From Neisseriaceae bacterium (lineage in GTDB: Bacteria; Pseudomonadota; Gammaproteobacteria; Burkholderiales; Chromobacteriaceae): a stretch of DNA of 64,000 bases. Positions within the stretch are counted from its first letter, which is position 1; each line of letters begins with the position of its first letter. The stretch covers positions 1-64,000 of the forward strand of contig JAIYAC010000021.1 of assembly GCA_027489245.1 (NCBI GenBank), in the 5' to 3' direction. Positions 207 to 63,494 of the stretch are shown here, piece after piece. Below the pieces are notes generated by a model. The model was not told where the DNA came from. It saw only the letters and a list, made by a program, of their open reading frames with translations, and did no database searches. The position numbers were made by a program, and so were the translations under genes.

Positions 207-2969
207 ATGGCCTCCAATAGAAAAAACAGCAAGAACCAGCCTTTGCGCCTGCAGGATCCGCACCTGAGTCGCGAAAAAGCCAAATACGACAATCCCTTAC
301 CTAGCCGCGAATTTGTCCTGGAAATCCTCGAAAAAAATGGTGTGCCCATGCACGCAGAGGAGCTAGCGGCCGTTTTCCCCATTTACGATCACGAGCTGGA
401 CCTGTTCGAGCGCCGTCTGCGCGCCATGGAACGTGCCGGCCAGATCCTGATTAACCGCAAGGGCGAGATCTGCGTGGCGCAGAAACTCGACCTGATCCCC
501 TGCCGCATCTCCGGCCACCGTGATGGCTACGGTTTTGCCGTGCGCGAAGACGGCGAGGGCGACGACATTTATCTTTCCGAACGCGAAATGCACAAGGTCA
601 TGCACGGTGACCGCGTGATGGTACGCCCGGCCGGCACCGACCGCCGTGGCCGCCCGGAAGGCCGTATTGCCGATGTGATCGAACGCGCCACCACCCGCCT
701 GATCGCCCGTATCTATAACGAACGCGGCGTGTGGTTTGCCGTGGCCGAAGACCGCCGTGTACGCCAGGAAATGCTGGTCGAAGCCGGCGGCGATGGCGGT
801 GCCAAGCACGGCCAGGTGGTGATGGTAGACATCGTGGAGTACGCCGATGCCCACCGCCAGGCCATCGTGAAAGTCAGCGAAGTGCTGGGCGACTACGCCG
901 ACCCTGGCATGGAAATCGAAATTGCCCTGCGCAAACACGACCTGCCGCATAGCTTCAGCGATGAAGCGCTGGCGCAAGCTGTGGCCACCTCGCAAAAAGT
1001 CGGCAAGAAAGACATCAAGGACCGCGTTGACCTGCGCGACCTGCCGCTGGTCACCATCGACGGCGAAACCGCCCGCGACTTTGACGACGCGGTGTACGCC
1101 GAGAAAAGCGGCAAGGGCTTCCGCCTGATTGTGGCCATTGCCGACGTGAGCCACTACGTGCGCCCCGGCGATGCGCTGGACGTGGATGCCCGCACGCGCA
1201 GTACTTCGGTGTACTTCCCGCGCCGCGTGATCCCCATGCTGCCGGAAGAGCTGTCCAACGGCATCTGCTCGCTGAACCCGGATGTCGACCGCCTGTGCAT
1301 GGTGTGCGACATGCAGATTTCGGCACGCGGCAAGGTGAAAAAATACCAGTTCTACCCGGCAGTCATGCGTTCGCAAACGCGCTTTACCTATACCCAGGTA
1401 TGGCAGCTGCTGTCCGAAGGTGGCGAGCACCCGCGCAAGCCGCAGCTGGAAACCCTGTATGCCCTGTTCCAGCAGCTGCTGGCGCAGCGCAAGAAACGCG
1501 GCGCGGTGGATTTCGATACCGTCGAAACGCAGATGCTGTTCAACGAGCAGGGCAAGATCGACAAGATCGTGCCGGTAGTGCGCAACGACGCCCACCGCCT
1601 GATCGAAGAATGCATGCTGGCGGCCAACGTGTGCTCGGCCGAGTTCATCCTCAAGCACGAACACAAGTGCCTGTTCCGCGTGCACGAAGGCCCTACGCCC
1701 GAGAAGCTGGAAAACCTGCGCCGCTTCCTGAACGTGAGCGGCCTCACCCTGGGCGGTGGCGACAAGCCCACCACCAAAGACTACGCCGAGCTGGCAGACC
1801 GCGTGCGCGAGCGCCCGGACGCCAGCATGATCCAGACCATGCTGCTGCGTTCCATGCAGCAGGCGGTTTACCAGCCGGAAAATCTGGGTCACTTTGGCTT
1901 GTCGTACGAGGCCTATACCCACTTTACCTCGCCGATTCGCCGCTACCCCGACCTGTTGGTGCACCGTACCATCAAGGCCATTCTGGCTGGCAAGAAGTAC
2001 AAGCCGGGCAAATGGGAAGCCATTGGCGAGCACTGCTCCATGGCCGAGCGCCGTGCCGACGACGCCAGCCGCGACGTGCAGTCGTGGCTGAAAACCTACT
2101 TCATGCGCGACAAGGTGGGCGAAGTCTTCACCGGCAAGATCAGCGCCGTGGCCGGTTTTGGCATCTTCGTGCTGCTGGACGGCCTGTACGTAGAAGGCAT
2201 GATCCATATCTCCGAGCTGGGCAAGGATTACTTCCACTTCCACAAAGACCTGCAAGCCATCATCGGCGAAAAAAGCGGCCTGCGTTACCAGCTGGGCGAC
2301 GCCGTCACCATCAAGGTCATGCGTGCCGACCTGGAAACCGCGCAGGTAGACTTTGCCTTGCTGGACGTTGGCCGCAAGCCGGTAGGCGGGCGTGACGACG
2401 GCGAGCGTGGGTCGCGTGGCCATAAAGGCCGTCGTGACAACCGCCGCCAGGGGGGCAACGAGCCACCTCAGAAAGCAGCGGCCAAACCCGCCGCCAAGCC
2501 GGCGGTAAAACTGGTCGAGGCGGTGTTGCCGGTAGCCAGCGAGGCTCCGGCGCCGGCCGCCAAGTCGTCGCGCAGCCGCCATCGTGGCAAGGGTCATGCT
2601 GCTAACAAACCGGCTGAGGTGCAAACCGCGCCAGCCCAGCCGGTACCGGCTGCCAAACCTGCCGAAGCCCAGCCAGTGGTAGTGGATACCCCCGCTGCCA
2701 AGCCGCCGCGTGCCCCACGCAAGCCGGCTGCAGCCAAGGCACCGGCCAATAAGCCAGCGCCAGCCCAGCCTGCCGCTGCACCGCAGCCCGTAGCCCAGCC
2801 GGCCAACCCGCCTGCAGAGCCAGCAGCTGCCAAGCCAGCACGCCGTCGCAAGCCAGCCGCTGCTGCTGCGGCTAACCCTGCACCAGCCAGTGCGGCAGCC
2901 GCCAATCCGGCACCGGCCGCCGATGGTGCCGCGCCTAAACCGCGTAGCCGCCGCAGCCCGCGCCGTTAA
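207..2969 (+). CDS. rnr: Ribonuclease R
   Basis: Processive 3'-5' exoribonuclease of the RNB family, which degrades structured RNA and acts in RNA quality control in the cytoplasm. Visible in order are an N-terminal winged-helix/cold-shock region, the RNB catalytic block with the acidic signature TARDFDDAV (residues about 285-295), and a C-terminal S1 domain (GKISAVAGFGIFV). After the S1 domain comes an unusual tail of about 190 residues (from about 730 to 920), made almost wholly of Ala, Pro and Lys with scattered Arg clusters, which makes the protein about 100 residues longer than E. coli RNase R. The ATG at 207 is preferred; an in-frame ATG at 186 overlaps a TATAAT box (182-187). The frame stays open further upstream, but that stretch lies across the tRNA gene. 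Confidence 0.95.
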   Translation: MASNRKNSKNQPLRLQDPHLSREKAKYDNPLPSREFVLEILEKNGVPMHAEELAAVFPIYDHELDLFERRLRAMERAGQILINRKGEICVAQKLDLIPCRISGHRDGYGFAVREDGEGDDIYLSEREMHKVMHGDRVMVRPAGTDRRGRPEGRIADVIERATTRLIARIYNERGVWFAVAEDRRVRQEMLVEAGGDGGAKHGQVVMVDIVEYADAHRQAIVKVSEVLGDYADPGMEIEIALRKHDLPHSFSDEALAQAVATSQKVGKKDIKDRVDLRDLPLVTIDGETARDFDDAVYAEKSGKGFRLIVAIADVSHYVRPGDALDVDARTRSTSVYFPRRVIPMLPEELSNGICSLNPDVDRLCMVCDMQISARGKVKKYQFYPAVMRSQTRFTYTQVWQLLSEGGEHPRKPQLETLYALFQQLLAQRKKRGAVDFDTVETQMLFNEQGKIDKIVPVVRNDAHRLIEECMLAANVCSAEFILKHEHKCLFRVHEGPTPEKLENLRRFLNVSGLTLGGGDKPTTKDYAELADRVRERPDASMIQTMLLRSMQQAVYQPENLGHFGLSYEAYTHFTSPIRRYPDLLVHRTIKAILAGKKYKPGKWEAIGEHCSMAERRADDASRDVQSWLKTYFMRDKVGEVFTGKISAVAGFGIFVLLDGLYVEGMIHISELGKDYFHFHKDLQAIIGEKSGLRYQLGDAVTIKVMRADLETAQVDFALLDVGRKPVGGRDDGERGSRGHKGRRDNRRQGGNEPPQKAAAKPAAKPAVKLVEAVLPVASEAPAPAAKSSRSRHRGKGHAANKPAEVQTAPAQPVPAAKPAEAQPVVVDTPAAKPPRAPRKPAAAKAPANKPAPAQPAAAPQPVAQPANPPAEPAAAKPARRRKPAAAAAANPAPASAAAANPAPAADGAAPKPRSRRSPRR

Positions 2970-2988
2970 GCTCGCGTCGCCGTAGCAG

Positions 2989-3023
2989 ACAAAACCGCAG
3001 CCAAGTGCTGCGGTTTTGTTTTA
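2989..3023 (+). terminator. Intrinsic terminator after rnr
   Basis: Perfect 13-bp stem ACAAAACCGCAGC / GCTGCGGTTTTGT (2989-3001 and 3007-3019) with a 5-nt loop, followed by a short T-rich stretch. It closes the rnr transcript. Confidence 0.85.
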
Positions 3024-3093
3024 TCAAGGCTGATGACTTGGGCATAATGTGACGATCTGATGATCGGGTCATAACAAGCACGAGGAGAATGAT

Positions 3094-6518: not shown

Positions 6519-7661
6519 CTATTGTAGCCGAATCTGGGAAAATTGCACCAGCCGTGCAGCCAGGCTGCCGCCAGCCAGGATTTTGTCGGGCCAGGCCTGG
6601 GCATGCAGCTGCCATTGTGGCCAGTGTTGCAGCAGGGCCGGCCAGCTGTCGGCGGCTAGCCGGTTGCGGTTCCACGCCAGCATAAAGCCCTGTACCGCAG
6701 TGCCCAGCGCTGGCGGCATGGCCTGGCAATAGTGCTGCAAAAAGGCTTGCAGTTTGTCGATGTGCGCGTCGTCGTCCTGGCGGTAGATGTGCCAGGCAAA
6801 CGGCCGCCCTGCCCACTGCGCGCGCAGAAAGCTGTCTTCGCCGCGCACCACATTGAAATCACAGCTCCACAGCAAGCGGTCGTAGCCGGCCTGGTCGGTC
6901 ATGGGCAGCAGGTAGAGCGCCAGTTGGCCGCAGGCGTAGTGCTGGCCGGCGGTGGCATCCGGCGGTAGGCCCAGTGCCTGCAGGACGTCCGGCACCACCT
7001 TGCTCATCGGCACTAACAGCTGTACCGGCTGGCTGCCTGCGGCCAACTGCTGCACCCACTGCGCTGCCGCCGGGCTATCGTAGGCAAACAGGCTGTAGCG
7101 CACGCCGCCGGGCGGGCAGGGCGGCACGCCGCGCGCTTGCCAGTAGGCGTTCTGTGCCGCGGTGTCGGCCTGCCAGGCGTCGCGTGCGGCCAGCAGGCTA
7201 TGTTCGCACAGCAGGCCGCCAGTGCGCGGGGTAAAACCGGGGAAGAAAAAGTACTTTTGCAGCGGCAGGCGCGGGTGCGGCGAGGGCAGGCCGTGGCAGC
7301 CTTCTACCCAGTCTTCGGCGGACAGGTATTCCAGGTTCAGCCACAGCGGGCGCCGGGCGTGCGCGGCCATGGCTTGCTGATAGCTGTCCGGCAGCTCGCA
7401 GGCAAAGGCTTCGATGACGATATCGCCCACCGCGGCGTCTGCCGGCAGCGGGTCGGCCCAGTGCCGTACCTCGATGCCGTCCAGCCGCTGCTGGGCTTGT
7501 GCCACGTGCAGCGCCGGGGCGATGCGGGCAAAGCTGGCCAGGTCGTCTACCCACAGCGTGACGTGCCAGCCGTGCTCGTGTACCAGCTGGCGCGCCAGGC
7601 GCCAGCACACGCCGATATCGCCATAGTTATCGATCACGCGGCAGAACAGGGAACAATGCAT
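6519..7661 (-). CDS. earP: EF-P arginine rhamnosyltransferase
   Basis: 380-residue inverting glycosyltransferase (formerly DUF2331, GT-B fold) that transfers rhamnose from dTDP-rhamnose to Arg32 of EF-P. The N-terminal family signature FCRVIDNYGDIGVCWRLA is intact, including the aspartates implicated in catalysis, as is the C-terminal nucleotide-sugar site RGEDSFLRAQWAG. It lies directly upstream of efp on the same strand, and efp carries the acceptor Arg32, so enzyme and substrate are co-located. The start at 7661 matches the family N-terminus; no strong ribosome site is visible. Confidence 0.96.
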   Translation of the reverse strand: MHCSLFCRVIDNYGDIGVCWRLARQLVHEHGWHVTLWVDDLASFARIAPALHVAQAQQRLDGIEVRHWADPLPADAAVGDIVIEAFACELPDSYQQAMAAHARRPLWLNLEYLSAEDWVEGCHGLPSPHPRLPLQKYFFFPGFTPRTGGLLCEHSLLAARDAWQADTAAQNAYWQARGVPPCPPGGVRYSLFAYDSPAAAQWVQQLAAGSQPVQLLVPMSKVVPDVLQALGLPPDATAGQHYACGQLALYLLPMTDQAGYDRLLWSCDFNVVRGEDSFLRAQWAGRPFAWHIYRQDDDAHIDKLQAFLQHYCQAMPPALGTAVQGFMLAWNRNRLAADSWPALLQHWPQWQLHAQAWPDKILAGGSLAARLVQFSQIRLQ

Positions 7662-7825: not shown

Positions 7826-8848
7826 ATGAGTGCGGTAGCAGCAACGGCACGTTTCGATACAGAGCAAGTGGGCCTGATTTGCGCCTACCGCTTTGCCCCT
7901 CAGCAGGCTGGCAGCGCGCTGGACGTAGCGGGTGTGCAGCAAGCGTTGGCCGCAGACCTGCCTGCGGGCCATTTTGTCTGGCTGCACCTGAACCTGTCGC
8001 ACAGCGGCTGCCAGCGCTGGCTGCGCGCGGTTTTGCCTGCCTTGCCCGCGGCCTTTTACGAGCAGCTGGGCGCCGGTACCGGCTCCACCCGGCTGGAGCA
8101 CATCGACGAAGCGCTGCTGGCCGTGATCAACGATGTCACCTTCGAGTTCGATCGCAGCGTCACCGATGTCGCGTCCATGTGGGCCTGCGCCACGCCGCAG
8201 GTGCTGGTTACCGCGCGGCTCAAGCCACTGCGCGCCATCGACCAGCTGCGCGCCTCGGTCAAGCGCGGTGCCGCGTTTGCCTCGCCACTAGGCCTCTTGG
8301 TGCACCTGCTGCAAGACCAGGCCGATATCCTGATTCGCATCGTGCGCGATACCACCGCCAGTGTGGATGCGCTGGAAGACAGCTTGCTGGCACACCGCCT
8401 GGGCGACCGCCGCGCCGAGCTGGCGGCCATGCGCCGTACCCTGGTGCGGCTGCAGCGCCTGCTGGCGCCAGAGCCCGGCTCGGTATTCCGCCTGCTGAAC
8501 AAGCCGCCGGCCTGGGTGAACGAGCACGACCTGCAAGACCTGCGCGAATCCACCGAAGAGTTTTCCCTGGTGCTGGGCGACCTAGTGTCCTTGGTAGAGC
8601 GCATCAAGCTGCTGCAAGAAGAGTTGGCCGCCATGCTGAACGAGCAGACCAACCGCACGCTGTTCACCCTGACACTGGTCACCGTGCTGGCCTTGCCTAT
8701 CAATATGGTGGCCGGTTTTTTTGGCATGAACGTGGGCGGCATCCCCTTTGCGGCCAACCCGCACGGCTTCTGGCTCCTGCTAGCACTGGTGGCCGGTTTT
8801 ACGCTGCTGGTAGGGCGCTGGGCGTTTCGTTGGCGCGAGCAGTTCTGA
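7826..8848 (+). CDS. CorA/ZntB-family divalent cation transporter
   Basis: 340-residue member of the CorA metal-ion transporter superfamily. A long cytoplasmic, helix-rich N-terminal domain is followed by two C-terminal transmembrane helices. The pore-loop signature GMNVGGIP follows the first helix (about residue 300) and resembles ZntB more than Mg2+-specific CorA. ZntB moves Zn2+ by proton-coupled transport. The ATG at 7826 is chosen because GAGG lies eight bases upstream; an in-frame ATG at 7784 lacks this. The metal specificity is inferred. Confidence 0.85.
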   Translation: MSAVAATARFDTEQVGLICAYRFAPQQAGSALDVAGVQQALAADLPAGHFVWLHLNLSHSGCQRWLRAVLPALPAAFYEQLGAGTGSTRLEHIDEALLAVINDVTFEFDRSVTDVASMWACATPQVLVTARLKPLRAIDQLRASVKRGAAFASPLGLLVHLLQDQADILIRIVRDTTASVDALEDSLLAHRLGDRRAELAAMRRTLVRLQRLLAPEPGSVFRLLNKPPAWVNEHDLQDLRESTEEFSLVLGDLVSLVERIKLLQEELAAMLNEQTNRTLFTLTLVTVLALPINMVAGFFGMNVGGIPFAANPHGFWLLLALVAGFTLLVGRWAFRWREQF

Positions 8849-8896: not shown

Positions 8897-9538
8897 TTAA
8901 CTGTCGGTAGGCAGTGCGCGGCCGGTGTGTGCCAGTGCCAGTTTCAGCAGAGCGTGCTGGCTGTCGGCGCCCAGCTTTTGCTTCAGTTTCTGGCGGTGGG
9001 TTTCTACGGTGTTGGCGCTAATGCCCAGCCGCGCCGCCATGTCCCCTTTGCCCAGCCCTTGGGCTACCAGCAGGAACACCTCCAGCTCGCGTGCGCTCAG
9101 GCTGTCTACGCCCTGTGGCGCTTGCGGCCCCTGGCGGCCCGCCAGCCGTACCGCCACATTGGGCGGCAGGTAGCGCAGGCCTTGCGCCAGTGCGGCCAGG
9201 GCCTGCGCCAGCTCTTTGCCCGCCGCGTCCTTGATCAGGTAGCCATCGGCACCGGCGGCCAGCGCCTGTTCGATGATGCTGGCTTCGTCACGTATCGACA
9301 GCACCAGCACGCGGCTGCCGGCGGCCCGCAGCTCGGGCAGCAGCTGCAAGCCATTGCCGCGCCCCAGGTTGATGTCCAGTAGCGTCAGCTGTGGCGGCGT
9401 GGTGGCCAGCGCGGCGCGCGCTTCGGTCAGGCTGCCGGCCTCGGCAATGTGGACGCCGGGGCAGTGGCTGCCCAGTAATGCGGCCAACCCCAGCCGTACG
9501 ATGGGGTGGTCGTCTACCAGCAGCACGTGTTGCCACAT
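8897..9538 (-). CDS. NarL/FixJ-type response regulator
   Basis: Two-domain DNA-binding response regulator of about 213 residues. The receiver domain has the acidic pocket VDD (9-10), the phosphoacceptor Asp55 in LLDINLG and Lys103 in YLIKD. The C-terminal LuxR-type helix-turn-helix begins at LSARELEVFLLVAQG and includes ISANTVETHRQKL. The ATG at 9538 overlaps the kinase stop codon as TGATG, a coupling signature; an alternative ATG lies at 9550. It forms an operon with the sensor kinase upstream. The target genes cannot be read from the sequence. Confidence 0.92.
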   Translation of the reverse strand: MWQHVLLVDDHPIVRLGLAALLGSHCPGVHIAEAGSLTEARAALATTPPQLTLLDINLGRGNGLQLLPELRAAGSRVLVLSIRDEASIIEQALAAGADGYLIKDAAGKELAQALAALAQGLRYLPPNVAVRLAGRQGPQAPQGVDSLSARELEVFLLVAQGLGKGDMAARLGISANTVETHRQKLKQKLGADSQHALLKLALAHTGRALPTDS

Positions 9539-11151
9539 CAGGCCAAGCATACGGTGGTGCCTCCGCCTGGTGTGGTCTGCAGTTGCAGGCTGCGGCCTAG
9601 CAGGCCGGCGCGCAATTGCTGCGAGCGCAGGCCGATGCCGTGGCTGATGCTGGCAGGGTCAAAACCGCAGCCGTTGTCCTGCACGGTCAGTAACGGTGCC
9701 TGCCCCAGCGCCAGTGTGACGCGGCTGGCCTGGCCGTGGCGGATGGCGTTATTGATGGCTTCCTGCGCGATGCGGTACACGTGCAGCCTGGCTTCGGCGC
9801 TGAGCTTGGGTGGCGTGTCGTGCACCTGCAGCGCTACGCTGACGCCGCTACCTTCGTGCTGGCTGGCCAGCGCCTGCAGCGCCGGCGCCAGCCCATCTTC
9901 CAGCAGCGGTGCCGGTGTCAGGCCGCGTGCGCCCAGCCGTACTTCGTTTACCGCTTGCTGCAGGCAGCTTTGCAATGCCCCCAGCGCCGGTGGCACGGGC
10001 TGCAGCGTGTTGGCCAGGCTGTCGGCCAGCAGGCGGGCGGCGGTGAGCGACTGGCCGGCGCCGTCGTGCAGCTCGCTGCCCAGGCGCTGCTTTTCGCGCT
10101 CGCTGGTGTCCAGCAGGGCGGCTTCCAGCAATTGCTGTTCTTCCTGCGCCTGCTTCAGCTCGCGCGCGCGGCGGGCCAGCCGGCGGCGGCGGCTGTCGGC
10201 GGCGCGGCGCAGGCGCTGGCGGGTGCGCAGCAGCACCCAGGTCAACCCGATCACCACGATGAACAGTACAGCGGACAGCGCGATCACGACGATGGCTGCC
10301 GGCACGATTTCCAGCCAGTTTTGCAGTGGGCTGCGGGCGAACAGGGTGAGGCGATAAGGTTGGCCGTTGCTGGTGGTGTAGTCCTGGTTGTCCCAGTGGG
10401 TAATCCATGGCGGCAGCGATAGCCTGCCGAGCTGCTCGTCCACGCTGTAGCGCCCGGGCGGCCAGTGTGCACTCTGCAGTAGCGGTGCGGGCGGGTAAGC
10501 GTCGTCGCCGTCGTCGGGCGACAGCGGGTTACCTACGTCTAGCGCGTACTCGCCGTGATCCGGCTGGCTGCGCACGGCGGCGTCGATACCGCTTTGCAGG
10601 CGGTAGTGCAGGCGCACAAAGCCCGGCAGCGGTGTGCCGGCTGCGTGTGGCAGCGGGTACAGCCATTCCAGGATCGGGTCTTGCCCTGGTTTGGCCTGGC
10701 GTGTACTGCCCGGCCCCGGTAGCGGCTGGCGGGTTTGGGCCAGTGGCTGTGCGTTCAGCACATCTTGTGGCGCCAGGGCTTGCAGGGTGTCGCTACCGCA
10801 GGCCAGACGGCCGGGGTGCGCGCCACGGGTGAGCACCAGCTCGGCACGCGCCCAGGTACCGCTGGCCAGTTGGCCGCAGATGCGCTGCAACAGCGCGCTA
10901 TCGACGCTGCCATCCGGCCGCAGCGCCAGTGTCAGGCTAGCCCCGTCACCGCGCGACTGGTCCATGTGCTGCTGGAAGCTGCGGTAGAAGTTGTCCTTGT
11001 GGTCACGAAAGCGGCGGCTGGCTTCGTGGATGCTGGCCGACCAGTGCATCAGCACTTGCAGGTAGAGCAGGGCCAGGGCGATGACGACCACGCCGCCCAT
11101 GGTGAGCAGGTCGCGGCGCGGCCAGCGGTGTCGGTGTCTGAGCAATTGCAT
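9538..11151 (-). CDS. NarX-like membrane sensor histidine kinase (HisKA_3)
   Basis: About 537-residue membrane kinase paired with the adjacent NarL-type regulator. One transmembrane helix lies near residues 15-35, followed by a roughly 240-residue periplasmic sensor region with no domain I recognise and a second helix near 280-305. A coiled linker leads to a HisKA_3 dimerisation box with the phosphorylated His (about 360) in ELHDGAGQ, then a HATPase domain (N-box QEAINNAIRHG, DNGCGFD, GIGLRSQQLR). The ATG at 11151 lacks a clear ribosome site, so the true start is uncertain; the frame is open to 11295. Confidence 0.88.
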   Translation of the reverse strand: MQLLRHRHRWPRRDLLTMGGVVVIALALLYLQVLMHWSASIHEASRRFRDHKDNFYRSFQQHMDQSRGDGASLTLALRPDGSVDSALLQRICGQLASGTWARAELVLTRGAHPGRLACGSDTLQALAPQDVLNAQPLAQTRQPLPGPGSTRQAKPGQDPILEWLYPLPHAAGTPLPGFVRLHYRLQSGIDAAVRSQPDHGEYALDVGNPLSPDDGDDAYPPAPLLQSAHWPPGRYSVDEQLGRLSLPPWITHWDNQDYTTSNGQPYRLTLFARSPLQNWLEIVPAAIVVIALSAVLFIVVIGLTWVLLRTRQRLRRAADSRRRRLARRARELKQAQEEQQLLEAALLDTSEREKQRLGSELHDGAGQSLTAARLLADSLANTLQPVPPALGALQSCLQQAVNEVRLGARGLTPAPLLEDGLAPALQALASQHEGSGVSVALQVHDTPPKLSAEARLHVYRIAQEAINNAIRHGQASRVTLALGQAPLLTVQDNGCGFDPASISHGIGLRSQQLRAGLLGRSLQLQTTPGGGTTVCLA

Positions 11152-11675: not shown

Positions 11676-13490
11676 ATGAACAAGACCTTTCAGCACGCTG
11701 GCCTGGTGCTAGCTTTAGCTTGCCTGGCCGCCTGCGGCGGTGGTGGTGGCGGTACTGCGGGTACCACAGCAACCACGCCAGGCACCACCGCTGGCGGCAG
11801 CAGTACCAGCACGGGCACCCCGTTGAGCGGCGTAGCCGCTACCGGCAAGGCGCTGGCCAATGCCCAGATCAGCTTGCGCGATGCGGCGGGCGTGATTCGC
11901 CGCACGACCAGCGACAGCCATGGTGCTTTCAGCCTGGATATCGCCGGCCTGCAGGCACCCATGGTGCTGGAGGCCCTGTCTGGCGGTACCACCTTGTACG
12001 CGCCGGTGTTCGCCGGTGACAGCCACGTCAACGTCAACCAGCTCACCAACGCCCAGCTGCGGCAATGGCTGCGCAGCCGCTGCGCCGACGACACCTGCCG
12101 CGCCCAGGCCGCTACCCAGCAGCTGTATGACTTCCAGGCGGCCGGCAAGGGCGACCTCTCGGCGCTGACGGCCGACAGCTTCGATAGTGACCTGCTGGCA
12201 CTCACCAGCACCGCAGGCGGCAGCGCCGGCAAGCTGCGTACCGATAACACCTTTGCGGCCAACGGCAAGGGCTGGGACGCGCTGCTGGACGCCCATCCTT
12301 ATGGCGCCATCACGGTGGACGCTAACGGCATCACCAGCCAGGCCGGCCTGCTGCAGGCCGCTGTCAGCAGTGTGGCGCTGGCAGACGCACCCGCCTTGCC
12401 GGCCTACCCGTACGACAAGCTGTGCCGCGGCACGTTGAACGCCACCGTGTACCGCACCGCCAATGTGGATATGTATGGCCAGGGCATCAGCGCCGACCAG
12501 CAACGCCGCGCCGCCTTGCTGGCCGATTACTACCTGCGAATGGAGCGCAGCCGCTTCGAGGTATTGACCGATACCGGCCTGACCGGCCAGCGCGCGCAGT
12601 ACTGCGTGGATGGCAGCGTGGTGAATGCCGGTGGCAGTGCCAGCGGCGGGGCGATCGGCGGGAGCCTGGGCTATTTCAGCGGCCCGCAGGCCGCGGGCGA
12701 GGACGACTGGCGCCAGGTCTTGCACCACGAAACCATCCACATGGCCGTGAACGCGGCCACCGGCAATACCGAGGCCGGCGGCCCGCACATGGTGGAAAAG
12801 TGGCTGGACGAAGGCCTGGCCGTGCACTTTGCCGCCCAGGACGGCTGGCTGAGCGATGTGGACGGCTGGTTTGCCGACAGCGACCACAGCGTGCACCCGA
12901 TGGAGGTGGGCCTGGATGGTCTGATCGGCAAGCAGCGCTTTGGCGACCTGGGCTACTACGAGATGTTCCGCCTGATGCTCAAGCAGCTGGAAGCGGCCAA
13001 TGCCGGCCCGCAGGAGCTGGGGCGCCGCGTGGCCAGCGTGCTGCGGGTGGTGAAAGGCAAGCCGATTGCCAGCAACCCCGGCGTGTTCCAGACCGCCGCC
13101 AGCCAGTATCTGTTCGGCTACACCCCGTACGCGACCTACCGCAGCAATCTGCCCGCCACCCTGCGTGATTACGTGGCCAGTCATACTGTCGGCCTGGGCT
13201 TGAGCGGCGGTACCGTGCTACGCGGTACCTTGCTGGCAGAGGGTGCAGCGGTCAGCTGCAGCAGCCTGCGCAAGGGGGAGGACGTACAGCTGGTAGGCGG
13301 CAAGCTGCTGCTACCCAAAGTAAACGGCAGCTACCGCTTGCTGGTGATGCAGTCGGTGAGCAAGGCCGGCAGCCAGGCCACGGTCAGCTATTACCCGCTG
13401 CAGACCGTCACCATCAGCAACGGCGCGGCCAACCCTGCCACGCTGGCGCTGGCCGGCCAGACGGTGGCCAGCCTCAGTTGCAGTAACTGA
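11676..13490 (+). CDS. Lipoprotein with HExxH metallopeptidase motif
   Basis: 604-residue protein with a lipobox (LAAC) followed by a glycine run and a Thr/Gly/Ser-rich linker. Residues about 48-95 look like a carboxypeptidase-regulatory-like beta domain. The central domain carries the zinc motif H351-E-T-I-H355, with a likely third ligand Glu379 in WLDEGLAVHF, 24 residues downstream; this is the gluzincin arrangement. It is therefore a probable outer-membrane-anchored zinc protease of unknown substrate. The start follows GAGGA with good spacing. Cysteines in the pairs CADDTC and SCSS..SCSN may form disulfides. Confidence 0.8.
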   Translation: MNKTFQHAGLVLALACLAACGGGGGGTAGTTATTPGTTAGGSSTSTGTPLSGVAATGKALANAQISLRDAAGVIRRTTSDSHGAFSLDIAGLQAPMVLEALSGGTTLYAPVFAGDSHVNVNQLTNAQLRQWLRSRCADDTCRAQAATQQLYDFQAAGKGDLSALTADSFDSDLLALTSTAGGSAGKLRTDNTFAANGKGWDALLDAHPYGAITVDANGITSQAGLLQAAVSSVALADAPALPAYPYDKLCRGTLNATVYRTANVDMYGQGISADQQRRAALLADYYLRMERSRFEVLTDTGLTGQRAQYCVDGSVVNAGGSASGGAIGGSLGYFSGPQAAGEDDWRQVLHHETIHMAVNAATGNTEAGGPHMVEKWLDEGLAVHFAAQDGWLSDVDGWFADSDHSVHPMEVGLDGLIGKQRFGDLGYYEMFRLMLKQLEAANAGPQELGRRVASVLRVVKGKPIASNPGVFQTAASQYLFGYTPYATYRSNLPATLRDYVASHTVGLGLSGGTVLRGTLLAEGAAVSCSSLRKGEDVQLVGGKLLLPKVNGSYRLLVMQSVSKAGSQATVSYYPLQTVTISNGAANPATLALAGQTVASLSCSN

Positions 13491-13500: not shown

Positions 13501-13529
13501 GCGGCCAACCTTGCTACAAGGTTGGCCGC
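13501..13529. terminator. Inverted decamer hairpin between convergent genes
   Basis: Perfect 13-bp inverted repeat GCGGCCAACCTTG / CAAGGTTGGCCGC with a 3-nt loop, between the lipoprotein gene and the convergent synthetase gene. The right arm holds a full GTTGGCCGCA decamer (13521-13530). There is no T-run, so termination may be weak or factor-assisted. Confidence 0.65.
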
Positions 13530-13549
13530 ATGGCCATGTCCCGCCCGCT

Positions 13550-14890
13550 TTACACGTGCAGCAGCAAAAAGCGCCGCTCCCACGGGCTGATTACATTGAA
13601 GTATTCGCCGTACTCGGCTTCCTTGATGGCGCTGTAGGCCTGGATGAAGTGCTCGCCGAACAGCTCGGCCAGCGGCTGGCAGTTCATCAGCAGGTCGATG
13701 GCGTCGTCCAGGTGGCGCGGCAGCTGGTGTGGCTGGTCGTAGGCGCTGCCAGCCAGCGGCGCGTCTGGCTGCAGGCTTTGCTTCATGCCCAGGTAGCCGC
13801 AGGCCAGGCTGGCGGCCAGCGCCAGGTAGGGGTTCACGTCTACGCCGGCCAGGCGGTTTTCTACCCGCCGCGCTTCCGGGCCGCTGTGCGGCACGCGCAG
13901 GCTGCAGGTGCGGTTGTCGTAGCCCCAGCTCAGGTTGATGGGCGCCGAGGTAAAGCGCGACAAGCGGCGGTAGCTGTTGACATACGGGGCGAAGAACGGC
14001 ATCGCGGCGGGCAGATAGGTTTGCAGCCCGCCGATAAAGTGGAAAAACGCTGGCGACGGGCTGCCGTCCGGCAGGCTGAAAATATTCTGCCCCCCGTCCA
14101 GCGCCACCACGCTCTGGTGGATGTGCATGGCGCTGCCGGGCTGGCCCTGCATCGGCTTGGCCATGAAGGTGGCGTACATATTGTTGCGGATGGCCACCTC
14201 GCGCACGGTGCGCTTGAACAGGAATACCTGGTCGGCCAGCGCCAGCGGGTCACCGTGGTCCAGGTTGATCTCCATCTGCGCGGTGCCCATTTCGTGAATC
14301 AGCGTGTCCAGCGCCAGCCCTTGCGCCTGGCACCAGTCGTACATCACGTCGAAAATATCGTCGTATTCGTTGACGGCGTCGATGCTGAAGCTCTGCATGC
14401 CGGCCTCGGTACGCCGCGTGCGGCCAACCGGTGGCTTCAGCGGCATGTCTTCGTCCGGCTCCACCTGTACCAGATAGAACTCCATCTCGGGCGCCACGAT
14501 GGGGCGCCAGCCTTCCTGCTCGTACAGTTTCAGGATGCGCTTGAGCACATTGCGCGGCGAGAGCGCGGCGGGCGTGCCGTCGAAATTGACGCAGTCGTGA
14601 ATGATCTGCGCGGTGGGTTCCTTGGCCCACGGTACCGGCCGCAGTGTGCTGGCGTCGGGTATCAGCCGCATGTCCGGGTCGGCCGGAGCGGTGAAGTGCT
14701 GCTCGGGGTAGTCGCCGGTGACGGTCATCATCAGCACCGCCTCGGGCAGGCGCAGGCCCTCGGCGGCGTTGTACTTGTGGCGCGGCACGATCTTGCCGCG
14801 TGCCAGGCCGGTCATGTCGGGAATCAGGCACTCCACTTCGGTAATGTGGTGTTCGTCCAGCCAGCGCTGGATGGTTTGCGCAGCATTCAT
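13550..14890 (-). CDS. Glutamine synthetase-family gamma-glutamylpolyamine synthetase (PuuA/SpuI-like)
   Basis: 446-residue member of the glutamine synthetase superfamily. The ATP/metal-site blocks are present: PEMEFYL, EMGTAQMEINLDHGD, GSAMHIHQS and the arginine-rich SLRVPHSGPEARRVENR. The N-terminal ECLIPDMTGLARGK resembles SpuI/PuuA enzymes, which glutamylate putrescine or spermidine to open polyamine catabolism, rather than GlnA. GGGAG lies 7-8 nt before the ATG. No other puu/spu genes are adjacent. The substrate is inferred from similarity. Confidence 0.82.
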   Translation of the reverse strand: MNAAQTIQRWLDEHHITEVECLIPDMTGLARGKIVPRHKYNAAEGLRLPEAVLMMTVTGDYPEQHFTAPADPDMRLIPDASTLRPVPWAKEPTAQIIHDCVNFDGTPAALSPRNVLKRILKLYEQEGWRPIVAPEMEFYLVQVEPDEDMPLKPPVGRTRRTEAGMQSFSIDAVNEYDDIFDVMYDWCQAQGLALDTLIHEMGTAQMEINLDHGDPLALADQVFLFKRTVREVAIRNNMYATFMAKPMQGQPGSAMHIHQSVVALDGGQNIFSLPDGSPSPAFFHFIGGLQTYLPAAMPFFAPYVNSYRRLSRFTSAPINLSWGYDNRTCSLRVPHSGPEARRVENRLAGVDVNPYLALAASLACGYLGMKQSLQPDAPLAGSAYDQPHQLPRHLDDAIDLLMNCQPLAELFGEHFIQAYSAIKEAEYGEYFNVISPWERRFLLLHV

Positions 14891-36366: not shown

Positions 36367-36385
36367 GTTTTTGCGGCAGTAAAAA

Positions 36386-49748: not shown

Positions 49749-50645
49749 ATGACCCAGCCTGAATTCAAATATCTGGAAGACTTTGTCGGCAACACCCCGC
49801 TGGTGCGCCTGAAGCACATGCCTGGCAATAGCAGCAACGTGGTGCTGGTCAAGCTGGAGGGCAATAACCCCGCCGGCTCGGTAAAAGACCGCCCGGCGCT
49901 GTCCATGATTCGCCACGCCGAAGCGCGCGGCGATATCCGCCCGGGCGACACGCTGATCGAGCCCACCAGCGGCAATACTGGCATTGCGCTGGCCATGGCC
50001 GCCACCATGATGGGCTACAAGATGATGCTGGTGATGCCGGAAAACTCCAGCCAGGAACGCGTTGATACCATGCGCGCCTATGGCGCCGAGGTGGTGCTGA
50101 CGCCCAAAGAGGCATCCATGCCGGGTGCTATCGACGAAGCGCGCCGCCTGCAGGCCGCAGGGGTTGGCCGCATTCTGGACCAGTTTGGCAACCCGGATAA
50201 CCCGCTGGCGCACATCGAAGGCACCGGCCCGGAAATCTGGCGCGATACCGCCGGCACGGTAACCCATTTTGTATCCAGCATGGGCACCACCGGCACGGTA
50301 ATGGGGACGGCTACCTACCTGAAACAGCAAAACCCGGCCATCCAGATTATTGGCGTGCAGCCGCAGCCGGGCAGCCAGATTCCCGGCATCCGCAAGTGGG
50401 AAGAAGAATACCTGCCCAAGATTTGCGATTTTTCGCGCATAGACGAGCTGCTGCTGGTAGACCAGCAAACCGCCGAGGACACCGCCCGCCGCCTGGCGCG
50501 CGAAGAAGGCATTCTGGCCGGGCCATCCTCCGGCGGTGCCCTGGCCGTAGCCTTGCGACTTAACGAGCAATTACAGAATGCCGTGATTGTTTCTATTGTC
50601 TGCGACCGCGGCGACCGTTATCTTTCTACCGGTCTATTTTCCTGA
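49749..50645 (+). CDS. cysM: Cysteine synthase B
   Basis: 298-residue PLP enzyme making cysteine from O-acetylserine and sulfide or thiosulfate. The PLP lysine lies in NNPAGSVKDRPA and the PLP-phosphate loop in PTSGNTGIALA; GTTGTVMGT and the shorter CysM-type C-terminus (GILAGPSSGGAL) distinguish it from CysK. GAGGAG precedes the ATG. A decamer copy (49727-49736) starts at the last base of TATAAT, so the transcript would begin within it. Confidence 0.95.
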   Translation: MTQPEFKYLEDFVGNTPLVRLKHMPGNSSNVVLVKLEGNNPAGSVKDRPALSMIRHAEARGDIRPGDTLIEPTSGNTGIALAMAATMMGYKMMLVMPENSSQERVDTMRAYGAEVVLTPKEASMPGAIDEARRLQAAGVGRILDQFGNPDNPLAHIEGTGPEIWRDTAGTVTHFVSSMGTTGTVMGTATYLKQQNPAIQIIGVQPQPGSQIPGIRKWEEEYLPKICDFSRIDELLLVDQQTAEDTARRLAREEGILAGPSSGGALAVALRLNEQLQNAVIVSIVCDRGDRYLSTGLFS

Positions 50646-50652: not shown

Positions 50653-50672
50653 GTTGGCCGCATGCGGCCAAC
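50653..50672. repeat. Perfect 20-bp decamer palindrome (tail-to-tail)
   Basis: GTTGGCCGCATGCGGCCAAC: two full decamers diverging, the opposite orientation to the palindrome at 36425. It lies seven bases after cysM and 17 bases before the zapE ATG and would form a hairpin in the zapE leader. Confidence 0.95.
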
Positions 50673-53389: not shown

Positions 53390-53476
53390 TCGCCGTTTGC
53401 GGCCAACCCTGGCCGCATGCGGAACCAGTTGTACCCGGCGGCTGCCCAAGGGTGGCCGCCTTTATCCGAGATACAC

Positions 53477-56176: not shown

Positions 56177-57451
56177 ATGGACGCAACGATCAAACGCCGT
56201 AAAACGCTGCAGGTAGCGGTAGGCCATGTGATGGTAGGTTCCGGGCACCCTGTGATGGTGCAGTCGATGACCAATACCGATACCGCCGACGCCGCTGCCA
56301 CGGCACAGCAGGTATTCGAGCTGGCCCAGGCCGGCTCCGAGGTGGTGCGCATCACGGTAAACAGCCCGGAGGCCGCCGCACGCGTCGCCGAAATCCGCCA
56401 GCGCCTGGATGACATGGGTTGCACGGCGCCGCTGGTAGGGGACTTTCATTTTAACGGCGAGCGCCTGCTGAAAGACTACCCGGACTGCGCGCGCGCGCTG
56501 GGCAAGTACCGTATTAACCCCGGCAACGTCGGCAAGGGCGCCAAAGGCGACGACAAGTTTGCCTACATGATCCGTACCGCCACCGAATACGGCAAACCGG
56601 TACGCATCGGCGTGAACTGGGGCAGCCTGGATCAAGCCTTGCTGGCACGCATGCTGGATGCCAATAACCATGCGGCCAACCCCAAGGCGCTGGACGTGGT
56701 GATGCGCGAGGCGCTGATCGTATCGGCGCTGGAATCTGCCGACAAGGCGATGGAGCTGGGCCTGCCCGCCAACCAGATCCTGCTGTCGTGCAAGGTCAGC
56801 AACGTGCAAGACCTGATTGCCGTGTACCGCGACCTGGGCAGCCGCTGCGAGTTTCCGCTGCACCTGGGCCTGACCGAGGCCGGCATGGGCAGCAAGGGCA
56901 TTGTCGCTTCCAGCGCCGCCCTGGCCGTGCTGTTGCAGGAAGGCATTGGCGATACCATTCGTATCTCGCTTACGCCGCAGCCGGGCGAAGCGCGTACCAA
57001 AGAAGTGGTGGTAGCGCAGGAGCTGCTGCAGACCATGGGCTTGCGCTCGTTTACCCCGCTGGTTACCGCCTGTCCGGGCTGTGGCCGTACCACCAGCACT
57101 TTCTTCCAGGAGCTGGCAGACAGCATCCAGACCTTCCTGCGCGAGCAGATGCCCATCTGGCGCCTGCAGTACCCCGGCGTGGAAGACATGAAAGTGGCGG
57201 TGATGGGCTGCGTGGTGAACGGCCCGGGCGAGTCCAAGCTGGCCGATATCGGCATCAGCCTGCCGGGTACCGGCGAAGTGCCGGTGGCACCAGTGTACGT
57301 GGATGGCCAGAAAGACGTGACACTCAAGGGCGACAATATCGCGCTGGAGTTCAAGGCACTGGTGGAAAACTACGTACACACCCGCTACGGCGTGGGCGGT
57401 GCCAAGCGCCGCGAAGTGGTGGCGCGTACCATCCCTATCAAACAGGTTTAA
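56177..57451 (+). CDS. ispG: 4-hydroxy-3-methylbut-2-enyl diphosphate synthase
   Basis: 424-residue iron-sulfur enzyme of the MEP isoprenoid pathway, reducing MEcPP to HMBPP. The N-terminal barrel shows [13 protein letters not shown] and RINPGNVG. The C-terminal cluster domain supplies cysteines in TACPGCGRT and [11 protein letters not shown]. The protein is longer than E. coli IspG (372) by an insert in the middle, as in other betaproteobacteria. It starts six bases after rodZ. The flavodoxin-dependent type is assumed. Confidence 0.96.
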
Positions 57452-58794: not shown

Positions 58795-59427
58795 ATGGCT
58801 TACGACCTGCAGGAACAAGAACAGATAGACGCGCTCAAGGGCTTCTGGGCGCAGTGGGGCAAGCTGATCGGCGGCGCCGTGCTGGCCGTATCCCTGGGTT
58901 TTATTGCGTATAAAGCCTGGCATGCCTACGAGAAAAACCAGTCCGAGCAGGCCGCCGTGGTATATGGCCAGCTGGAGCAGCAGCTGCAAGCGGGCCAGCT
59001 GGATAAAGCCAAGGCCACCGTCGCTGCCTTGCAAAAAGACTATGCCGCGTCCGCCTATGCGGCCAACGGTAGCCTGCTGCTTGCCAAGCTGGCGTTTGAG
59101 AGCAAAGAACTGGGCAGCGCCCGCAGTCAGCTGAAGTGGGTGATCGAGCATGCCGACAAGGATGACACCCTGCAAGCGGTAGCCCGTCTGCGTCTGGCTG
59201 CCGTCCTGCTGGACGAAAAACAATACGATGCCGCGCTCGCCGAGCTGGCCATGGCGCACCCTGTCGCGTTTGATGCCATGTTCCTGGACCTGAAAGCCGA
59301 TGTGCTGGTAGCCCGTGGCGACCTGGGTGGCGCCCGCGAAGCCTACAAGGCAGCACTGGCAAAATCCGCACCAGAGGCCCCGGTGCGCGAGTTTATCCAG
59401 GCCAAACTTGACTCTCTGGGGAGCTAA
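58795..59427 (+). CDS. yfgM: YfgM-family membrane-anchored TPR protein
   Basis: 210-residue protein with a short cytoplasmic N-terminus, one transmembrane helix (about residues 21-42) and a periplasmic domain of TPR-like helices. YfgM is an ancillary SecYEG/PpiD chaperone in E. coli and is nearly always encoded just before bamB, as here (2-bp gap). A decamer copy lies in frame as YAAN (59058-59067). Confidence 0.92.
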   Translation: MAYDLQEQEQIDALKGFWAQWGKLIGGAVLAVSLGFIAYKAWHAYEKNQSEQAAVVYGQLEQQLQAGQLDKAKATVAALQKDYAASAYAANGSLLLAKLAFESKELGSARSQLKWVIEHADKDDTLQAVARLRLAAVLLDEKQYDAALAELAMAHPVAFDAMFLDLKADVLVARGDLGGAREAYKAALAKSAPEAPVREFIQAKLDSLGS

Positions 59428-59429: not shown

Positions 59430-60569
59430 ATGATGCGCCGACTGTTGCTGTGTGCTGCACTTTTGCCTGCGTTGGGTGGCTGCGCCTCGTGGTTTGAGGG
59501 CGAATCTGCCTATCAGCCTACACCGCTGAAACCGCTGCAAGCGTCTGTGGGGCCAAAGGTACTGTGGCAAACCAGTGTGCCGGATGCTGGTCGTGGCTTG
59601 TTTTCCCCGTTTATCGAACAGGGTAAGCTGTGGGTAGCGGGTACTCATGGCAAAATCCAGCAGCTGGACGCGCAAACCGGTAAAACCCTGCTTACACTGG
59701 ATGTAAAGCAGGCGCTGGTGGCCGGCGTGGCGGCAGATGATGGTTTGCTGTTTGCCGGGAATGATCGTGGCGAATTGCTCGCCGTGAGCGCTGCCGATGG
59801 CAAGCTGGTGTGGAAGCAAACTCTTACCAGCGTGTTGGCCGAGCCGCCACAGCTGGCTGGCCGCGTGTTGGTCGTGCGCGCCGGTGACGGGCGTGTGTCG
59901 GGTTTCGAGCTGAAAACCGGCCGCCAGGTATGGACGCAGTGGCAAGCGCAGCCTGCGCTGACCGTGCGCGCCACCACCCCGCAGATCAAGGTCGAGGGCA
60001 GTGACGTGCTGCTGGTAGGTGAAGCCGCCGGCAAGGTAACGGCTTACGCCGCAGAGCGTGGCGACCAGCTATGGCAGTCTGTGGTGGCCAATGCGCGTGG
60101 TGCCAGCGAGCTGGAGCGCGTTACCGATGTTGTCAGCCAGCCCATGTTTGATGGCCGCCGCGTGTGCGCGGTAGCGTACCAAGGCCGTGTGGCGTGCTTC
60201 GATTCGCGCGGGGGCCAGCAGCTGTGGGCACGCGACCTGAGCAGCAGCCGTGGCCTGGTGTCGGATGGCAAGACCGTTTTCGTGACGGCAGAAGATGGCG
60301 CGATCTGGGCATTTGATGCCGACTCGGGTCGCAACCTATGGAAACAGGACGATTTCCGCTACCGCAATGTGTCTGCCCCGGTAACGCTTGGCGATACATT
60401 GCTGGTAATTGATGGTGAAGGCTATGCACATCTGCTTTCATCCCTTGATGGACGTATAGTTGGCCGCAGTAGCCTGAAAGTAAACGGCACCATGCCACGC
60501 CCGCTGGTAAGCGGCGATGTGGTCTACGTGCTGGATAACAACGGCAACCTGTCCGCGCTGACGAAGTAA
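59430..60569 (+). CDS. bamB: Outer-membrane assembly lipoprotein BamB
   Basis: 379-residue lipoprotein (lipobox LGGC, Cys about 18) folded as an eight-blade PQQ-type propeller; repeated W-x-T/S and G-x-L/V-W/A-F/L blades are visible (VLWQTSVP, LVWKQTL, QVWTQW, QLWQSVV, QLWARDL, NLWKQDD). It is the BamA-binding subunit of the outer-membrane protein insertion machine. Two in-frame ATGs are adjacent at the start (59430 and 59433). It lies between yfgM and der in the conserved order. Confidence 0.95.
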   Translation: MMRRLLLCAALLPALGGCASWFEGESAYQPTPLKPLQASVGPKVLWQTSVPDAGRGLFSPFIEQGKLWVAGTHGKIQQLDAQTGKTLLTLDVKQALVAGVAADDGLLFAGNDRGELLAVSAADGKLVWKQTLTSVLAEPPQLAGRVLVVRAGDGRVSGFELKTGRQVWTQWQAQPALTVRATTPQIKVEGSDVLLVGEAAGKVTAYAAERGDQLWQSVVANARGASELERVTDVVSQPMFDGRRVCAVAYQGRVACFDSRGGQQLWARDLSSSRGLVSDGKTVFVTAEDGAIWAFDADSGRNLWKQDDFRYRNVSAPVTLGDTLLVIDGEGYAHLLSSLDGRIVGRSSLKVNGTMPRPLVSGDVVYVLDNNGNLSALTK

Positions 60570-62290: not shown

Positions 62291-62306
62291 TCCCTAGTCT
62301 TACCCC

Positions 62307-62343
62307 AAGGCTGGCCGGCGTATGCTGGTCAGCCTTCTTTATT
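62307..62343 (+). terminator. Hairpin terminator after hfq
   Basis: 10-bp stem AAGGCTGGCC / GGTCAGCCTT (one G-T pair) with a 10-nt loop, followed by CTTTATT. It would partly separate hfq from hflX. Confidence 0.7.
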
Positions 62344-62357
62344 GAAAGCCCCCCTGC

Positions 62358-63494
62358 GTGTTTGATCGTCCTGATCTTGGTGACCAAGCAGTACTGGTAA
62401 GTCTCGACTTTGGCGAGGCGGATTATGAAGATGGCGTCAGCGAATGCCTGGAGCTGATAAAAGGCGCCGGCGTAGCTGTCACCGGCCTGATCAAAGGTAA
62501 ACGTCAGCGCCCGGATGCGGCCCTGTTTGCCGGCAAGGGCAAGGTGGAAGAAATCGCCGCCCTGGTGAAGGCAACCGACGCCAATGTGGTGATTTTCAAC
62601 CACGCACTGGGGCCGGGGCAGGAGCGTAACCTGGAGCGCGTGCTGCAGTGCCGGGTGATAGACCGTGTCACGCTGATTCTGGATATCTTTGCCCAGCGTG
62701 CGCGTAGCCACGAGGGCAAGCTGCAGGTTGAGCTGGCTCAGCTAACGCATATGTCTACCCGCCTGGTGCGCGGCTGGACTCACCTGGAGCGGCAAAAAGG
62801 CGGTGTTGGTATGCGTGGCCCGGGTGAAACCCAGCTGGAAACCGACCGCCGTTTGCTAGGCCTGCGCGTGAAGGCACTGAAAGACCGCCTGGCTACCGTG
62901 CAAAAGCAGCGCAAAACCCAGCGCCGTAGCCGCGATCGTTCCGGCTTGCCCTCCGTCTCTATCGTTGGCTATACCAACGCAGGTAAATCCACGCTGTTCA
63001 ATGGCCTGACCAAGGCCGGTGCCTACGCGGCCGACCAGCTGTTTGCCACGCTGGACACCACCAGCCGCCGCCTGTTCATCAATACGGATGTGTCCATCGT
63101 GCTGTCGGATACGGTGGGGTTTATCCGCGATTTGCCTCACTCTCTGGTGGCCTCTTTTCGCGCCACGCTGGAAGAAACCATTTCTGCCGACCTGCTGCTG
63201 CATGTGGTCGATGCGGCCAACCCCATGCGGGAGCGTCAGGTAGAAGAGGTGAATAAAGTACTGAAAGAAATCGGAGCCGATCACGTCCCGCAGCTGATGG
63301 TGTGGAACAAGACCGACCTGCGCGGCTTGCCGCCAGCCATCCTGTACGACGAGTACGGCGCGGTAGAGGGCGTCCGGGTGTCTGCACTGTCTGGTGCCGG
63401 CCTGGAACTCCTGCGCGAAGCCATTGCCGAACGGGCGTTGGCAACGACTCACTCGCAAACCACAGAAAAAGTAGATCACCATGGCACAGAATGA
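62358..63494 (+). CDS. hflX: Ribosome-associated GTPase HflX
   Basis: 378-residue GTPase that splits stalled or heat-damaged ribosomes. The N-terminal HflX domain has the glycine-rich DAALFAGKGKVEEI. The linker RMRGPGETQLETDRR-type motif is present as GMRGPGETQLETDRR. The G domain starts GYTNAGKSTLFN, with G3 DTVGF. The start codon is GTG at 62358, with only GAAAG upstream. The end overlaps hflK by 14 bases. Confidence 0.95.
   Translation: MFDRPDLGDQAVLVSLDFGEADYEDGVSECLELIKGAGVAVTGLIKGKRQRPDAALFAGKGKVEEIAALVKATDANVVIFNHALGPGQERNLERVLQCRVIDRVTLILDIFAQRARSHEGKLQVELAQLTHMSTRLVRGWTHLERQKGGVGMRGPGETQLETDRRLLGLRVKALKDRLATVQKQRKTQRRSRDRSGLPSVSIVGYTNAGKSTLFNGLTKAGAYAADQLFATLDTTSRRLFINTDVSIVLSDTVGFIRDLPHSLVASFRATLEETISADLLLHVVDAANPMRERQVEEVNKVLKEIGADHVPQLMVWNKTDLRGLPPAILYDEYGAVEGVRVSALSGAGLELLREAIAERALATTHSQTTEKVDHHGTE

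Follow-up and report, generated by a model that had tools for sequence, protein, structure and literature searches.

The 64-kb stretch of DNA analysed here (contig JAIYAC010000021.1, positions 1 to 64,000; hereafter the window) carries a dispersed decamer, TGCGGCCAAC, with 47 exact matches, 24 on the plus and 23 on the minus strand, the first at 2367-2376 and the last at 63212-63221. These figures agree exactly with a preliminary description of this DNA, which had read the word as a DNA uptake sequence (DUS) and had put its chance expectation at about 0.3 copies. The strong enrichment that it claimed holds: 100 dinucleotide shuffles gave a mean of 0.56 copies (maximum 3), and an order-3 Markov model gave an expectation of 0.39, with the word ranking first among the 10-mers with at least eight copies in the window (z = 73). 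The 9-mer GCGGCCAAC is found 65 times and is preceded by T in 47, G in 10, A in 5, and C in 3 cases. Position 1 is the softest base of the word because only 47 of these 65 copies carry T there. The base after the word is C in 22 of the 47 window copies, as the earlier remark that a C often follows had it. When the window is combined with 400 kb of the complete Vogesella genome G059, of which one stretch (the end of L192) is partly masked, the three positions after the word favour C (0.50), T (0.55), and T (0.55). The reverse complement of the word is GTTGGCCGCA, and AAG is the preferred extension in front of it.

The window was tiled roughly with open reading frames (ORFs) by GC frame. Forty of the 47 copies lie wholly inside ORFs, 22 in gene sense and 18 in antisense, and a single codon phase is common to 31 of the 40. 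Six of ten scanned ORFs gave family matches at E 1e-10. The gene at 21133-24009 encodes an adenosylcobalamin-dependent ribonucleotide reductase of 958 amino acids, which exceeds the NrdJ_Z model (best stretch 22-585). On the plus strand, exact matches are located at 7038-7047, 8749-8758, 9479-9488, 12254-12263, 14419-14428, 15909-15918, 17166-17175, 22908-22917, 26990-26999, 28381-28390, 35489-35498, 40267-40276, 41896-41905, 46289-46298, 49727-49736, 56671-56680, 59058-59067, and 63212-63221, together with a direct pair 51 bp apart (24918-24927 and 24969-24978) and two copies that are intergenic in the tiling (32913-32922 and 53398-53407). On the minus strand, they are located at 2367-2376, 6923-6932, 7945-7954, 10869-10878, 15336-15345, 16374-16383, 18264-18273, 20802-20811, 26784-26793, 27789-27798, 28810-28819, 31752-31761, 38112-38121, 38793-38802, 40567-40576, 44265-44274, 48124-48133, 50163-50172, and 60459-60468, with 13521-13530 and 34581-34590 again intergenic in the tiling.

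The remaining four copies form two inverted pairs. The first, TGCGGCCAACGTTGGCCGCA at 36425-36444, has its left arm on the plus strand (36425-36434) and its right arm on the minus strand (36435-36444), and lies between convergent genes of the tiling. The second, GTTGGCCGCATGCGGCCAAC at 50653-50672, has its left arm on the minus strand (50653-50662) and its right arm on the plus strand (50663-50672), and spans the assumed start of a tiled ORF. The preliminary description had the word paired in terminators. The pairing is real, in one case between convergent genes, but a terminator scan of the window lists neither pair. Instead, at 36385-36418, six bases ahead of the first pair, it gives a distinct terminator between convergent genes, with a long stem and T-runs on either strand. 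A role of the window pairs as terminators themselves is unsupported, and we do not claim transcription termination by inverted pairs because the pair at 36425-36444 adjoins this separate terminator.

The RNase R encoded in the window shares 99% identity with its counterpart in Vogesella aquatica, 94% with that in V. urethralis, and 89% with that in V. oryzae. Because of these identities, we take the genus of the window (g1) to be Vogesella, freshwater bacteria of the Chromobacteriaceae in the order Neisseriales. A further record, "Beta proteobacterium L13" (L046, AMYZ01000007.1), is Vogesella-like, with an RNase R identity of 99% and the word occurring 11 times in 12 kb. The genome from which the window comes (G000; 26 contigs, 3.51 Mb, 88% complete) holds 2301 copies of TGCGGCCAAC (1143 forward, 1158 reverse), one per 1.5 kb, compared with six (three forward, three reverse) for the word read backwards. 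The preliminary description had foreseen more than 1000 copies genome-wide and a top rank among k-mers; TGCGGCCAAC indeed leads the 10-mers in the window and in the 400 kb of G059. All 13 Vogesella genomes hold 1871-2895 copies, and the 48 genomes of nine other genera of the family 8-58. In a draw of 399 genomes across the order, more than 52 copies occur only in the six Vogesella genomes drawn.

When k-mers were counted de novo in stretches sampled from the other genera, words emerged that share the 8-mer CGGCCAAC and have a different 5' end. A first pass was swamped by words of conserved stretches common to several loci (e.g., in Chromobacterium and Aquitalea), taken to be rRNA or tRNA genes. 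In a second pass, we counted distinct 5' contexts and removed such words; a candidate word of Iodobacter from the first pass was gone once this was done. We distinguish dialect A (TGCGGCCAAC / GTTGGCCGCA), dialect B (TTCGGCCAAC / GTTGGCCGAA, TT), and dialect C (CTCGGCCAAC / GTTGGCCGAG, CT). Dialect B occurs 183-2168 times in eight of the 61 family genomes and at most 78 times in the other 53. Its bearers are two genomes of g6 (2168 and 579 copies), one of g9 (1851; Paludibacterium denitrificans, G045), one of g7 (1245), three of g10 (1104, 893, and 183), and G010 (1368), the sole bearer among ten g2 genomes. The g10 genome with 1104 copies is that of Pseudogulbenkiania ferrooxidans 2002 (G046), which we take to be the same strain as Lutiella nitroferrum 2002. 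Dialect C is borne by two of the 61 genomes, those of g5, possibly Crenobacter, with 1940 and 1590 copies; G036 comes next with 165, and the other 58 have at most 92. By these whole-genome counts, 23 of the 61 family genomes have a dialect and 38 have none of the three. The families beyond Chromobacteriaceae were searched with dialects A and B, and in the order-wide draw, more than 47 copies of dialect B occur only in G010 and G038, both Chromobacteriaceae. One genome is mixed (G036, 579 TT and 165 CT) and one is thin (G047, 183 TT); these might be words in decay or changing spelling.

Loci of named species around the RNase R gene, about 12 kb each, give the same picture at smaller scale. TT copies number seven in Gulbenkiania mobilis, seven in Neisseriaceae bacterium JH1-16, four in Pseudogulbenkiania subflava, and three in P. 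ferrooxidans 2002; the locus of Paludibacterium denitrificans holds 11 in 22 kb. Crenobacter luteus has 10 CT copies, C. intestini one CT, and C. oryzisoli three TT, and ten Chromobacterium loci have 0-3 dialect copies each. The RNase R loci of Paludibacterium purpuratum, P. yongneupense, and Crenobacter caeni have zero copies of all three dialects. The genus name is no predictor of the word, as species of Paludibacterium and Crenobacter differ. No comparable word was found in the sampled stretches of g4 (40 kb), g8 (60 kb), g2 without G010 (140 kb), and g3 (about 320 kb), although a sparse word could escape sampling of 40-320 kb. The best z in these groups was 6-12, whereas the top words of the dialect-bearing groups reach 17-89.

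The over-representation, the dialects, their distribution and conservation, and the gene content are direct observations. Our interpretation is that TGCGGCCAAC is very probably a DNA uptake sequence of Vogesella and one dialect of a set used in part of the Chromobacteriaceae. The genomic signs support the uptake reading of the preliminary description, which missed the dialect set and the DUS register of GTTGGCCGCA. In the proposed scheme, GTTGGCCGCA would serve Vogesella, GTTGGCCGAA would serve Pseudogulbenkiania, Paludibacterium denitrificans, Gulbenkiania mobilis, and others, and GTTGGCCGAG would serve Crenobacter luteus and genus g5. Following the Neisseria pattern, a ComP-like minor pilin of the type IV pilus would bind the word on extracellular DNA, the pilus would retract, and ComEC would pass one strand inside, where DprA and RecA would recombine it. 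The word would thereby raise DNA uptake. Preferential uptake of tagged DNA would spread tagged alleles, so that the word accumulates and is maintained.

Uptake sequences are described in Neisseriaceae and Pasteurellaceae (PMC7811141). The Vogesella word resembles the DUS of Neisseriaceae (PMC3630211) in its roughly 2000 copies per genome, its rank as top 10-mer, and its presence both inside and between genes. Lineage-specific dialects and the lack of strand or replicore polarity are likewise shared with DUS. Inverted pairs are found in both, and the frequent pairs of DUS are associated with transcription terminators. At one copy per 1.5 kb, it is somewhat sparser than the neisserial DUS, for which a spacing of 0.4-1.1 kb is given (PMC7371117). 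Eight DUS dialects have been reported, all with a CTG core (PMC3630211; PMC12061091), and a 2024 paper still counts eight. The CTG, at positions +6 to +8, is described as invariant (PMC3630211), as is the A at position +10. In the register chosen by analogy, all three Chromobacteriaceae dialects have CCG in place of CTG, in keeping with the earlier remark that the word lacks the CTG of the Neisseria DUS. At +10, dialects A and B have A, as in DUS, and dialect C has G. The core common to the dialects is GTTGGCCG, unlike that of DUS, and is found in a sister family. We set the word apart from the neisserial DUS, as a variant, because two defining features are lacking despite the DUS-like genomic signs.

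Dialect B, written as AGGTTGGCCGAA, agrees with simDUS, AGGCTGCCTGAA (PMC10715097), at 9 of 12 positions, and 216 of 20,000 letter shuffles were as good; dialect A agrees at 8 of 12, with 1529 of 20,000 as good. The shuffle test allowed five shifts and both strands over seven dialects. The bare 10-mers, lacking the extension, do not stand out against DUS (0.08, 0.40, and 0.37). A common descent of DUS and the Chromobacteriaceae words is possible.

The uptake signal sequence (USS) of Pasteurellaceae, with the core AAGTGCGGT, follows the same logic of a tag on self DNA and is of similar density. This core was present in 0-2 copies per group of sampled stretches. Taken together, known neisserial and Pasteurellaceae words gave 0-12 copies per sampled group (20-400 kb each), with no visible excess, the chance level not being computed. 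Pasteurellaceae belong to a different order, and the receptor proposed there is ComN (PMC12616744).

The Vogesella genomes contain genes expected of a Neisseria-like system, namely type IV pilins, a ComP-like pilin, ComEC, and DprA. ComEC was detected in 59 of the 61 family genomes and 11 of the 13 Vogesella genomes, and DprA and the ComP-like pilin in 13 of 13. The preliminary description had pointed to competence genes as a check, and they are present in the genus. In the genome of the window, 12 pilin-type N-termini were found at E up to 1, 11 of them over the cut-off. The candidate reader is a 138-residue minor pilin (G000:C1:41419-41832), which matches Pfam ComP_DUS (PF16732) at 1.7e-7 (32.5 bits, cut-off 27.3). 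Its best PDB matches are Neisseria ComP chains (2m3k, 5hz7, 2nba). With a profile of ten ComP-like proteins, three Neisseria ComP chains top the PDB list (2.3e-18, 8.3e-18, and 1.8e-17), and Neisseria ComP outranks every other pilin listed. The segment FK..STKWP.LP of Neisseria ComP aligns with YK/FK..S/T..WP.LP of the ComP-like proteins. Each of the 61 family genomes gave a match to the 138-residue pilin at E 1e-3, weak and partial hits included.

We compared 40 stretches with the ComP-like gene, comprising all 23 dialect-bearers and the best-matching 17 of the 38 other genomes (one of the 17 rows was unusable). K63 is present in 21 of 23 bearers and none of the 17 non-bearers, T96 in 20 and none, G99 in 21 and one, A49 in 20 and one, and D97 in 22 and four. 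The dialect A proteins differ from those of B and C at R94, Y100, V102, T118, and T120. In the profile alignment, the K63 stretch aligns with FKQTSTKWPSLP of Neisseria ComP, and by sequence the contrast stretches appear to correspond to its alpha1-beta1 and beta1-beta2 loops. Neisseria ComP is described as contacting DUS with its DD region and beta1-beta2 loop, and with a short portion of its alpha1-beta1 loop (PMC4906244). Within g2, the loop reads ANTDAG in the dialect-bearing G010 and NARAD or NARND in the five dialect-less relatives aligned.

Several points weigh against this interpretation. No ComEC was detected in G058 or in the window's own genome, which is 88% complete. A paralogue, L002, scores higher against ComP_DUS than the candidate (1.3e-22), although its best PDB match is PilE. 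Some dialect-less genomes match the Vogesella ComP-like query as well as bearers do (G013, 2.0e-22; G020, 3.6e-22). G045, with its 1851 copies, has R in place of K63 and is without T96, D97, and G99, and in G010 residue 63 is T. The residue contrasts are largely confounded with phylogeny: in a ComP tree of 39 rows, Vogesella (dialect A) forms one clade (100/100), dialect B takes four changes, and absence of a dialect takes three. The mature part contains two cysteines in 37 of the 40 ComP-like proteins and three in two, one row being unusable. Because there are only two cysteines, the candidate probably lacks the DD region and the second disulfide, unlike Neisseria ComP with its four cysteines and two disulfides (PMC4906244). 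By its letters, the word's derivation from DUS is suggestive only.

Among the alternatives, the one that fares best keeps the uptake word and assigns its reading to another pilin, e.g., the FimT/GspH-like protein whose gene sits immediately upstream of that for the ComP-like pilin in the genome of the window; we regard it as unlikely. This GspH-domain pilin has a relative within the fetched ComP stretch in 39 of the 40 genomes, FimT of other bacteria binds DNA, and the probable lack of a DD region in the ComP-like candidate would also fit a different reader. We know of no sequence-specific binding by FimT, however, and it is the ComP-like protein that has Neisseria ComP as its nearest solved relative; both the PDB comparison and the residue contrasts covered the ComP-like protein.

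Another alternative is a word that serves within the cell as a target of binding or methylation (by a nucleoid protein or methyltransferase, or as a HIP1-like iterated word) and plays no part in uptake. Close pairs with starts less than 60 bp apart are inverted in 41 of 48 cases (window, G059 stretches, and 15 further Vogesella stretches, of which 13 are orthologous ComP stretches, so that some pairs recur). Across Vogesella genomes, the head-to-head order TGCGGCCAAC...GTTGGCCGCA with a spacer of 0-12, the one inverted order counted, occurs at 32-150 places per genome, and direct pairs at 0-7. Of the 31 inverted pairs in the window and the G059 sample, 21 fall between genes, although coding sequence makes up 88% of the tiling, and the genes flanking these 21 are convergent in eight cases, co-directional in ten, divergent in one, and undetermined in two. 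Unpaired copies number 107 in sense, 112 in antisense, 55 intergenic, and one at an edge. Strand neutrality and conservation would suit an intracellular site, as would the palindromic centre GGCC. HIP1-type iterated words are palindromic, whereas TGCGGCCAAC as a whole differs from its reverse complement GTTGGCCGCA. The intergenic placement of the pairs, with eight convergent cases and a single divergent one, also speaks against such a site, and so does the spelling, which shifts at one end only, by lineage, alongside the loop residues of the ComP-like protein (confounded with phylogeny). We consider an intracellular site improbable, somewhat more so than a different pilin reader.

Two direct arrangements were also noted: a tandem array of six head-to-tail copies in 12-base steps (TGCGGCCAACCC units) in G060 (C28:74195-74264), and two direct copies 17 bp apart at G000:C1:35253-35279, an arrangement also seen in G050, G056, G057, and G058.

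A recombination hotspot or chromosome-segregation word such as Chi or KOPS would share the high density and lineage-specific spelling, but such words are polar relative to replication. We sampled 20 evenly spaced 20-kb stretches of G059, with 140 forward and 150 reverse copies. Where the GC skew is positive, 68 are forward and 78 reverse, and where it is negative, 72 and 72 (p = 0.64); strand heterogeneity across the 20 stretches is likewise absent (p = 0.81). The word is strand-neutral on both skew halves and does not cluster by replicore orientation, which bears out the earlier argument from strand balance, and an excess of inverted over direct pairs is unexpected for a polar word. This explanation is therefore rejected as highly improbable. 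The copies per 20-kb stretch (mean 14.5, variance 8.3) are spread more evenly than Poisson, the significance of which was not tested. Two stretches of the sample are free of the word, L199 1-7261 (at least 7.3 kb, reaching the locus end) and L203 2663-8114 (5.5 kb). Their GC content is 0.574, compared with 0.635 in the whole sample, and they are candidate acquired islands.

Codon choice and conservation bear on the last alternative, that the word is a by-product of codon or amino-acid usage, or else a mobile repeat scattered over the genome. The window has 31 Ala-Ala-Asn in frame; 24 are written GCG GCC AAC, where codon usage predicts 3.4, and T stands in front of 19 of these, where 0.4 are expected, which is 7-fold and 47-fold over expectation, respectively. 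Leu-Ala-Ala is written G TTG GCC GCA in 12 of 76 cases (0.15 expected). For conservation, we used 13 orthologous Vogesella stretches; the counts come from those 103 of 156 directed pairs that have three or more aligned copies, and sites recur among them. The controls were matched for GC or taken from third codon positions, without matching of the tripeptide. The share of aligned copies that are intact is 101 of 260 at 70-75% identity (control 7%), 6 of 17 at 75-80% (9%), 52 of 102 at 80-85% (17%), 166 of 218 at 85-90% (GC-matched control 31%), and 182 of 223 above 90% (47%). Third codon positions are identical inside and outside copies at 0.70 and 0.58, 0.78 and 0.63, 0.93 and 0.75 (the 85-90% band), and 0.95 and 0.83 from distant to near bands. 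Between close species, aligned copies seldom contain gaps (1 of 218 and 1 of 223), and at 70-75% identity gaps are neither rarer nor commoner than in controls (39 of 260, control 13%). The shared codon phase of 31 of the 40 copies inside ORFs would fit a by-product, but GCG GCC AAC lies far above the codon-usage expectation, the nine sister genera hold only their 8-58 copies, and the flanks are not shared among copies, with only a few weakly preferred bases, so that, within the reach of these counts, we reject both the by-product and the mobile repeat as next to impossible, the gap counts also speaking against the latter.

Returning to the DNA uptake sequence, we tentatively suggest, with slightly more doubt than confidence, that the Chromobacteriaceae have their own class of system. 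It would consist of the GTTGGCCG core with three dialects, distinct from one another only in the final two positions, and of a ComP-like reader that uses the alpha1-beta1 and beta1-beta2 loops without a DD region. DUS and the Chromobacteriaceae word would then be two outcomes of one ancestral reader, the target having drifted through the supposedly invariant CTG. Genus g3, most of g2, and Chromobacterium (at the named RNase R loci) may have lost the word and the loop residues together.

The DUS kind itself is known; what appears to be new is a family-level set of uptake-type words with a core that differs from CTG. In the accessible open-licence PubMed Central literature that we searched, preprints aside, neither the word nor a DUS outside Neisseriaceae is named. 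In Frye et al. (2013, PMC3630211), Lutiella nitroferrum 2002 and Pseudogulbenkiania NH8B are among the genomes without an obvious DUS, and Supplementary Table S1D of that paper (over-represented 10-mers of Pseudogulbenkiania and Lutiella) may print the word without calling it a DUS. If the present interpretation is true, it revises this 2013 statement on Pseudogulbenkiania-type genomes. Some genera bear a dialect and near relatives with the same pilin gene do not, which provides natural pairs of gain or loss; G010 and the rest of g2 are an example pair for the coevolution of reader and word and for the specificity region of ComP. If true, the finding would also offer a practical handle for transforming Vogesella, Pseudogulbenkiania, and their relatives.

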